DNA of 40,103 nucleotides, taken from the IMG/VR virus record IMGVR_UViG_3300049255_000166, positions 1-40,103 of that record, one strand, 5' to 3'. The position numbers and the translations under genes were made by a program. The stretch is from a virus. The notes under the pieces are model-generated. The model was not told the DNA's origin, did not search any database, and saw nothing but the letters and a program-made list of their open reading frames with translations. Every line of letters starts with the position of its first letter. Positions within the stretch are counted from its first letter, which is position 1. Shown here piece by piece: positions 6,580-27,293 of this stretch.

Positions 6580-7044
6580 TCAGCGGCGGAAGGCGGAGCA
6601 GAGGAAGTATTCGAGCCCGGGCGTCACCCGGTTGGCCGGCGTGGCAAGCCGCGGGACGAAACCGGATTGCTCGAGGCCGGCCGTGCTCACCTCGGAGCAG
6701 AACCACGAGTCCGGCGCGCGCCAGTCGCGATCGAAGGCGAAGGCGGCGATGGCGGTCATGTCGTAGGGCTTGCCGAGCTGCGCCTGGACGAAGGCGTAGT
6801 AGGCGCCGGCGATGGCCTCGGTCGTGACAAGCTCGACGCGCTCGAGCCGGGTGAACGGCGCATAGCCGGGCGGTCGGAGCTGCACGCCTGGTCGCGGGGC
6901 GCCGTCCTTCCCCGAGCGGGCGCCGAGGAGCCAGCCATCCGGCATGACGGTATCGACGTGGCTGCACCAGCCGCGCTCGAACACGCGGATAGCCCACGAC
7001 TGCCATCCGGCCTCGGTCGAGAACTGGAGGACGATGGCGGCCAT
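6580..7044 (-). CDS. Permuted papain-like (NlpC/P60, YiiX-type) peptidase or amidase
   Basis: 154 residues with the catalytic elements in permuted order. His29 in WCSHVDTVMPDGWLLGA comes first and Cys116 in DSWFCSEVS comes near the end, as in YiiX-like enzymes; ordinary NlpC/P60 has Cys first. The stretch QLGKPYDMTAIAAF before the Cys is typical of the family. These enzymes cut amide or ester bonds, in phages most often in peptidoglycan stem peptides. Its position directly upstream of the lysozyme suggests a lysis or entry role. This call rests on motif order, spacing and context. Confidence 0.75.
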   Translation of the reverse strand: MAAIVLQFSTEAGWQSWAIRVFERGWCSHVDTVMPDGWLLGARSGKDGAPRPGVQLRPPGYAPFTRLERVELVTTEAIAGAYYAFVQAQLGKPYDMTAIAAFAFDRDWRAPDSWFCSEVSTAGLEQSGFVPRLATPANRVTPGLEYFLCSAFRR

Positions 7045-24550: not shown

Positions 24551-24626
24551 TGGTGCCGGCCGGGAAGAGTCGAACTTCCGACCCCCGCATTACGAGTGCA
24601 GTGCTCTACCGCTGAGCTACGCCGGC
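24551..24626 (-). tRNA. tRNA-Thr(CGU), linear, CCA encoded, one extra base at the acceptor
   Basis: Minus strand from 24626: acceptor GCCGGCG, D-arm GCTC-AGCGGTA-GAGC, anticodon stem CTGCA/TGCGG with loop CTCGTAA (anticodon CGU, antisense of 24592-24594), variable GGGTC, T-arm GGAAG-TTCGACT-CTTCC, then C-GGCCGGC-ACCA. All stems close except the base of the acceptor: eight bases lie between the T-stem and ACCA where seven are expected, leaving one bulged base near position 66. Six acceptor pairs are still perfect. It could be functional with a bulge, decaying, or a base-calling error. It sits between two late genes on the same strand. Confidence 0.85.
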
Positions 24627-25842: not shown

Positions 25843-26313
25843 TCACGCCTGATTCAGGCCGAACTTCACCGCGTCGGTGAGCTCGGCGCGGATCTGGCTC
25901 GCCATGCTGTCGAGCGACGGCTTCAGGAACGGGTGCGCCGGGATCACCGCGCCCGGGTTCATGACCCGCGCCGCGAAGACCTGGGCGCCGCCGAGGGCAA
26001 AGGCGAGCACCTTCGCCTTGTCGGGCAGGATCTCGTGGGCCTTCGTCTTGGCGCCGCGCTCCTGGGCGCGCGCATACTGCTTGGCCTTGCCGGAGACGTA
26101 GACCCGGGCGGTCACCGCTTTCTCGCTCGCCCGCACGCGCTGGCGGATGCTCGAGGCGAGCTTGCCGCTCAGCTTCGGCGCCACGCCGGCGGCCTTCTCG
26201 GCGAGGGCGGCGGCGAGCTCGAGCTCCTTTTCCTTGAGCGCGTTCATCACGCTCTCCGGCATGCGCTTGAGGCGCGCCTCGCCGGCGACGGCGTTGATCT
26301 CGATCTTGAGCAT
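25843..26313 (-). CDS. HK97 gp10-like / minor tail protein
   Basis: 156 residues. A basic N-terminal strand (KIEINAVAGEARLKRM), a long helix (ALKEKELELAAALAEKAAGV), then APKLSGKLASSIRQRV, the A-P-x-x-x-G-x-L-x-x-S-I motif of HK97 gp10/phage Z-type proteins. The C-terminal PAHPFLKPSLDSMASQI matches the family ending. It takes part in head-tail joining. Unusually, the minus-strand sequence before ATG 26313 has no ribosome site: it is occupied by the permuted tRNA element, suggesting that the tRNA displaced the original leader. Confidence 0.8.
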   Translation of the reverse strand: MLKIEINAVAGEARLKRMPESVMNALKEKELELAAALAEKAAGVAPKLSGKLASSIRQRVRASEKAVTARVYVSGKAKQYARAQERGAKTKAHEILPDKAKVLAFALGGAQVFAARVMNPGAVIPAHPFLKPSLDSMASQIRAELTDAVKFGLNQA

Positions 26314-26326
26314 CGTGCTAAACCGG

Positions 26327-26410
26327 CTGCAGGCGGAGGTCGGTGGTTCGAATCCACCTCGGTTCCATTCGACGGGGCCGATAGCTCAGGCGGGAGAGCG
26401 CCGCCCTCAA
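26327..26410 (+). tRNA. Circularly permuted tRNA (3' half encoded before 5' half)
   Basis: In order on the plus strand: 3' anticodon strand GGCGG (26332-26336), variable AGGTC, T-arm GGTGG-TTCGAAT-CCACC (26342-26358) and 3' acceptor TCGGTTC (26359-26365). A spacer C-ATTCGAC-G follows. Then 5' acceptor GGGCCGA (26375-26381), TA, D-arm GCTC-AGGCGGGA-GAGC (26384-26399), G and 5' anticodon strand CCGCC (26401-26405). The acceptor strands pair at all seven positions (two G-U), plus one extra G-C. The anticodon strands pair 5 of 5. No linear arrangement works on either side. The anticodon cannot be fixed because the loop junction (CTGCA upstream, CTCAAC downstream) is unknown. It fills the 98-base gap between two opposite-strand CDSs. 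Confidence 0.7.
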
Positions 26411-26411
26411 C

Positions 26412-27293
26412 TCAGGCCGCGGCGACGACCGGCACGCGATAGGAGTCGAGCAGTCCCTCCACGTAATAGGGCATCGTCTTCAGGTCGAAGCTGACGGTTT
26501 CCTGGGCGTTGAGCGCCTTCGACTTCACTCCGATGCGCTCGAGGTAGCGGAAGCGCTCGGCGGCGATCTCGATCACCGCCTGCTCGATATCGCTCGGCAC
26601 GAACCCGTAGGTGAGGAGCACCGCCTGGCCGGCGTCGCCGGCGGCGAAGCCGTAGTTGCCCTTGGCGTCGACCGTATACTGTCCTGTCGCCGGGCTGGCG
26701 GCGACATTCGCGAGCGCCGCGCCGCTCGAGGCGTATGTGACGCCACCATCGCTGCCCCAGGGGCCGAGCGGCTGCTGGGCGGCGACCGACTGGCCGGCGC
26801 CCTGCGGCACCGTCGCCGCCTCGTTGGTGACCTGGTAGCCCGCGACGTAGCTGACCGCGACGTTGCGGATCCCGGCGTCGAAGGCCCACTGCCAGCCCTG
26901 GATCGAGAGCATCTGGGCATTGCCCGGGATGGTCCCGTCCCACGGGTCGAGAATGTAGCCGTCGCCGGGCTCCTCGCCGAAGACGAGGGGCGGCGCGGCG
27001 GTGATGGTCTCGCCGTTGATCGTCAGCGAGGTGATCGAGAGGACCGGCCAGCGTCGGAGCTGGATGCGGCTGCCTGAGGTCGCGGCGATGCCGCCGCGGG
27101 TCATCACGACGCTGTCGCCGCCGGAGCCGTCGCGCACCTCGGTGACCGGGGTCGGCGTCCAGATCGGCCGGTTGGTATAGTTGCAGACGAAGAGCGAGGC
27201 CTGGCGGATGAGCCGGCCGAGCTGCAGGTCGTTGTTCGAGTTGGCTATGCCAAGCCAGAGCTTGACGTTGTCGAGGCTGGCGAGGTCGGGCAT
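26412..27293 (-). CDS. Head-tail connector (gp6-like) with inserted beta module
   Basis: 293 residues. The N-terminus ASLDNVKLWLGIANSNNDLQ and LGRLIRQASLFVCNYTNRPI, then RRWPVLSITSLTINGE, are typical of gp6-like connectors. The C-terminal helix region SDIEQAVIEIAAERFRYLER completes the fold. Between them (about residues 158-231) is an extra domain ending GQYTVDAKGNYGFAAGDAGQ, which also occurs in the major tail protein. gp6-type proteins form the ring below the portal. The stop TGA at 26414-26412 lies immediately after the permuted tRNA on the other strand. Confidence 0.8.
   Translation of the reverse strand: MPDLASLDNVKLWLGIANSNNDLQLGRLIRQASLFVCNYTNRPIWTPTPVTEVRDGSGGDSVVMTRGGIAATSGSRIQLRRWPVLSITSLTINGETITAAPPLVFGEEPGDGYILDPWDGTIPGNAQMLSIQGWQWAFDAGIRNVAVSYVAGYQVTNEAATVPQGAGQSVAAQQPLGPWGSDGGVTYASSGAALANVAASPATGQYTVDAKGNYGFAAGDAGQAVLLTYGFVPSDIEQAVIEIAAERFRYLERIGVKSKALNAQETVSFDLKTMPYYVEGLLDSYRVPVVAAA

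Follow-up and report, generated by a model that had tools for sequence, protein, structure and literature searches.

The window analyzed here is the whole of the IMG/VR record IMGVR_UViG_3300049255_000166 (40,103 nt, positions 1 to 40,103). A 98-base gap in its late operon lies between an HK97-gp10-like gene (25843 to 26313, minus strand; assigned by position and weak similarity, with no Pfam match) and the gene for a gp6-like head-tail connector (26412 to 27293, minus strand; Pfam PF05135, E-value of 7e−9). The gap houses a permuted tRNA-like element on the plus strand, opposite the late operon, and has little room beyond this tRNA-like domain (TLD). A promoter and terminator scan found neither a sigma-70-like promoter nor an intrinsic terminator near the element. 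Another gap in the late operon contains a complete tRNA-Thr(CGT) gene on the operon's strand (24551 to 24626, minus strand), the sole tRNA that ARAGORN and Rfam recovered in the window at default thresholds. Capsid relatives are found in Xanthobacter, Beijerinckiaceae, and Roseiarcus, and the likely host order is Hyphomicrobiales.

The core of the domain (26332 to 26405, plus strand) reads, in order, anticodon-stem 3′ strand, variable loop, T-arm, acceptor hairpin, D-arm, and anticodon-stem 5′ strand. GGCGG (26332 to 26336) and CCGCC (26401 to 26405) are the 5′ and 3′ outer strands of a closing stem at the anticodon position, in which all five positions pair according to both the sequence and ViennaRNA. 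The variable loop AGGTC (26337 to 26341; tRNA positions 44 to 48) is followed by the T-arm GGTGG-TTCGAAT-CCACC (26342 to 26358; five of five pairs). The 3′ acceptor strand TCGGTTCC (26359 to 26366) then pairs at all eight positions, two of them G-U, with the 5′ acceptor strand GGGGCCGA (26374 to 26381), and the stem is capped by the loop ATTCGAC (26367 to 26373). Comparison with host tRNA-Ala identifies the first A of this loop as the discriminator position A73, and GGGGCCGA retains G3:U70, the alanine identity pair. The dinucleotide TA leads from the acceptor hairpin to the D-arm GCTC-AGGCGGGA-GAGC (26384 to 26399; four of four stem pairs), and a single G separates the D-arm from CCGCC. The tRNA signature bases U8, A14, G15, G18G19, G26, C48, and TTCGA are all retained. 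A preliminary description of this DNA had placed the T-arm and 3′ acceptor strand ahead of the 5′ acceptor strand and D-arm, with perfect D- and T-arms, a fully paired anticodon stem, and a seven-base spacer between the acceptor ends. All of these elements were confirmed, the spacer as a hairpin loop; its 7 of 7 acceptor pairs, a count that includes the two G-U wobbles, are corrected to eight by the addition of 26366/26374.

ViennaRNA folds 26332 to 26405 into exactly this cloverleaf (−32.9 kcal/mol, z −1.5). ARAGORN makes no linear tRNA call at the element, and Rfam is silent at default thresholds; when the two halves are swapped, ARAGORN calls a tRNA. A scanner for permuted tRNAs scored 21 of 21 pairs at the element, a value that was not reached in any of 300 dinucleotide shuffles of the window (maximum of 19), and the maximum across 993 kb of related phage DNA was also 19. 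The permuted cloverleaf is not a chance arrangement.

A scan of viral contigs for the pattern "T-loop, short spacer, D-arm" returned at least 120 stretches, most of which are tandem linear tRNAs. Among the matches listed, 13 are not flanked by a linear tRNA, and six or seven of seven acceptor pairs form in 11 of the 13; tandem linear pairs center on three cross-acceptor pairs (peak of 2 to 4). After a second, narrower scan had enlarged the locus set, 30 distinct nonlinear loci were picked by sequence pattern alone. At least five of the seven acceptor pairs form in 27 of these 30 loci and six or seven in 24, and each acceptor position takes four to six standard pair types across the set. At class level, such covariation is strong evidence for a permuted acceptor hairpin, and it provides the compensatory changes in homologous loci that the preliminary description had proposed as a check. 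The same architecture is present in many phages and in Hyphomicrobiales genomes. At several sister loci a TROVE (Ro60/Rsr) gene lies directly downstream, which pointed us to bacterial Y RNAs. Of 33 TLD-bearing records, 19 matched the TROVE domain PF05731 (6 of 12 in a first batch and 13 of 21 in a second, some records being near-duplicates), compared with 1 of 30 controls that carry linear tRNAs in tandem.

The element itself aligns end to end with the Rfam YrlA model (RF02553) at 26323 to 26423. The score of 32.2 bits (E-values of 2.3e−5 in a 341-base search and 6.3e−7 for the record) is well under the curated gathering cut-off of 69 bits; the core alone reaches 28.9 bits, the flanks adding about 3 (3.3) bits, and the ordinary tRNA-Thr of the same record obtains 9 bits. 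The YrlA matches of the sister loci, at 27 to 58 bits, likewise stay under the cut-off, and a threshold of 69 bits excludes almost every phage YrlA-type RNA in this set (L034, L036, L049, L118, L128, and L097). Sub-threshold scores of about 27 bits are also obtained from tandem linear tRNAs (L034, 13038 to 13197), whose outer tRNA halves the element lacks; hence, a dedicated model for phage YrlA-type RNAs would be needed. The element has the D-, T-, and acceptor arms and the closed acceptor hairpin of a TLD.

The Ro module, in contrast to the tRNA-like half, is absent. The middle helix on the Ro side of YrlA is deleted in the RF02553 alignment, both flank sequence motifs of other Y RNAs were not found at the element, and its best flank helix has 6 bp, compared with 8 to 14 in canonical Y RNAs. 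No stable Ro-like stem appeared when the outer flanks were included in the fold (z −0.7). The alignment offers a weak, possible remnant of the basal Y-RNA stem, CGGC (26324 to 26327) paired with GCCG (26416 to 26419), both on the plus strand. A full Y RNA in the 98-base gap would overrun both neighboring genes, and no PF05731 match (TROVE/Ro60/rsr) was found in the 40-kb record; a linked rsr gene is frequent with YrlA RNAs but does not accompany all of them. About ten of the 66 TLDs that we collected also have neither flank motif, including L240, L242, and L278.

At those three loci (T-loops at 6996, 6911, and 2663, respectively) the Ro-less permuted domains are located within tRNA arrays and adjoin linear phage tRNA genes (tRNA-Asn, or tRNA-Lys together with tRNA-Leu), in records without TROVE. 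Three Hyphomicrobiales loci (L315 1536, L316 1517, and L317 1513), which have no canonical Ro stem, share a repeated unit in which a linear tRNA-like gene, called as Val or Met at L315 and L316, lies no more than about 10 bases downstream of a permuted tRNA domain. Many phage YrlA-type RNAs (T-loops at L093 11354, L097 6968, L128 3024, L036 1172, L254 467, L259 12657, L283 4815, and L289 9808) and the host copy L314 (1512) carry an anticodon hairpin between the Ro stem and the variable loop. These hairpins have a stem of 4 to 5 pairs, U33, a purine at 37, and varying anticodons (for example GCT, TCT, TTT, TGT, and CAT), so that these RNAs contain a complete tRNA with its permutation at position 26. 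A local anticodon hairpin with five of five pairs occurs in 10 of the 66 TLDs, compared with 1.5% in shuffles. At L034 (8000 to 8850) and L097 (6400 to 7150), both on the minus strand, at least three apparent Y RNAs stand in a row before the rsr gene, and some units of these arrays seem to have only an anticodon-like hairpin and no full tRNA domain.

Among 199 genomes of the likely host order, YrlA was found above the Rfam cut-off in 8 and at an E-value of 0.001 in 29, and TROVE was found in 15. The element was absent from all 91 capsid relatives and from eight loci of connector-protein relatives (34 to 43% identity); because none of these relatives has it, conservation or covariation cannot be shown at the same locus. 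The search with the gp10-like protein gave no relatives, and BLASTn against phage and plasmid collections produced short or scattered matches to tRNA arms. Its absence from all 91 capsid relatives makes it probable that the element was acquired recently or in this lineage alone.

We consider it likely that the element is an orphan tRNA mimic with the TLD architecture of YrlA and no Ro-binding stem, and predict its function on this basis. According to PMC8394870 and PMC7790460, the tRNA-like domain of YrlA RNAs resembles D-, T-, and acceptor arms and is a substrate for modification by DusA and TruB, and the basal stem tethers Rsr; PMC8394870 also covers binding to PNPase and cites PDB 6CU1 as the structure of Salmonella YrlA. 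The phage RNA would be transcribed from the plus strand, antisense to the late operon, although the promoter scan found no match, and would fold on its own. It should be neither aminoacylated nor used in decoding, because its acceptor end is a closed hairpin. Enzymes that act on tRNA, TruB and Dus among them, would bind and modify the elbow formed by the D- and T-arms and the acceptor helix, as the literature shows for YrlA. Ordinary YrlA tethers Rsr through the stem at its anticodon position, and in the element this handle is reduced to a bare five-pair stem. We hypothesize that, because of this reduction, the RNA functions independently of Rsr, serving tRNA-handling enzymes or PNPase as a decoy or tether, or that it makes weak use of host Rsr. 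The possibility that YrlA decoys tRNA nucleases is raised in PMC7790460.

Has the element simply decayed? It could be a remnant of a YrlA acquired from a host or phage and now without function, as the missing Ro stem, the lack of rsr in the record and of a promoter match, and the relatives without the element would suggest. However, none of the 22 pairs is broken, the tertiary signature bases are preserved, and the element fills a short gap between two structural genes. We regard decay as unlikely.

The preliminary description took the element for a permuted tRNA gene. The permuted topology stands, and a working-tRNA gene is unlikely; given the RF02553 match, which has the same permuted order and closed acceptor hairpin, the element is best explained as the TLD of a Y RNA of the YrlA type, a tRNA mimic described in PMC8394870. 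If the gene instead encoded a true tRNA-Ala in permuted or split form, the ATTCGAC loop would have to be cleaved by RNase P and a 3′ nuclease, and the anticodon gap would be ligated or left nicked, giving a two-piece tRNA. Several features favor this idea: the reordered element aligns over 75 nt with 81 to 83% identity to Hyphomicrobiales tRNA-Ala(CGC), retains G3:U70 and A73, is accepted by ARAGORN, and has UGC-A at the anticodon position of its 3′ half. However, a genuine host YrlA (L303; above the cut-off and in a genome with TROVE), the one YrlA used as a reordering control, reorders to 88% identity with host tRNA-Lys. The tRNA-like domains of Y RNAs can thus lie this close to a tRNA, and no independent permutation of a tRNA is needed to explain it; we have therefore set aside an independent permutation of tRNA-Ala. 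In addition, the acceptor contains an extra A-U pair, CCA is not encoded, and plausible junctions of the halves give either CUG with C37 or a six-base loop with UGC-A37, so that a normal seven-base anticodon loop with U33 and a purine at 37 seems hard to build. A search of a subset of the window's ORFs found no RNA ligase or splicing gene among their proteins. The YrlA control, the apparent lack of a normal anticodon loop, and the additional pair in the acceptor leave a working tRNA with a small probability. We give a similarly small chance to a broader version, in which phages carry Ro-free permuted tRNAs, the element among them. These would either mature into working tRNAs that stay nicked or are religated (tRNA-Ala in this case, with its G3:U70 pair) or act on their own as decoys against host defenses that attack tRNAs.

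Two further explanations were refuted. Tandem linear tRNAs in phage arrays can imitate the sequence pattern, and the preliminary description had considered that a nearby linear tRNA might reveal two unrelated truncated copies; yet no outer halves and no tRNA call were found within 26200 to 26500, 7 of 7 cross-acceptor pairing occurred in only 2 of roughly 140 tandem linear pairs tested, and at the element the closing stem also pairs at five of five positions, which makes an origin from truncated tRNAs in head-to-tail arrangement extremely improbable. A permuted or two-piece tmRNA, the analogy offered in the preliminary description, shares the permuted order of halves and is just as improbable, as the element has a standard D-stem, no mRNA-like tag domain or tag reading frame, and no pseudoknots, and it received no tmRNA call, the tmRNA models scoring 9.7 to 12.9 bits against cut-offs of 70 to 84. 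An attachment site was dropped by reasoning: the element lies between structural genes, and such a site does not need two reversed tRNA halves.

Our analysis explains a phage "permuted tRNA" by a known tRNA mimic and corrects a tempting misreading. It also illustrates that most phage Y RNAs escape detection at the cut-offs now used for tRNAs and by Rfam. The form without Ro is of modest interest unless it is expressed; if it is, one must ask which role the tRNA-like half of a Y RNA plays when Ro is missing.

How does the element compare with known systems? In algal and archaeal permuted tRNA genes, the 3′ half also precedes the 5′ half, and a tRNA endonuclease and a ligase splice their transcripts to working tRNAs; in contrast, no processing signal or usable anticodon was found in the element. 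Like the permuted two-piece tmRNA (RF04321), the element has its tRNA-like part in permuted order, but it lacks the mRNA-like part, scores poorly with the models, and differs in the D region. The preliminary description knew of no established phage example, which does not hold for this fold: Y RNAs in phages have already been reported, as noted in PMC12282133 with reference to Chen 2014, and mycobacteriophages also have Y RNAs beside TROVE/Rsr according to the same source. The phage Y RNAs beside TROVE/Rsr in our set (L034, L049, L075, L093, and L097) have the same tRNA-like domain as the element and, unlike it, a Ro-type basal stem and an adjacent rsr gene, several of them with an intact anticodon hairpin. 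What is new here is the domain-only form, without Ro stem and rsr, in a structural operon. YrlA (RF02553) and the element have in common the permuted D-, T-, and acceptor arms, an acceptor closed by a short loop, and a stem at the anticodon position that leads to both RNA ends; the element differs in its eight acceptor pairs and in its score of 32.2 against 69 bits, has neither the Ro-binding helix nor the motifs, and comes from a record without rsr. Because the Ro stem, the motifs, a score above the cut-off, and rsr were not found, we do not file the element as a member of YrlA; it is built like the tRNA-like domain of YrlA and is probably derived from it.
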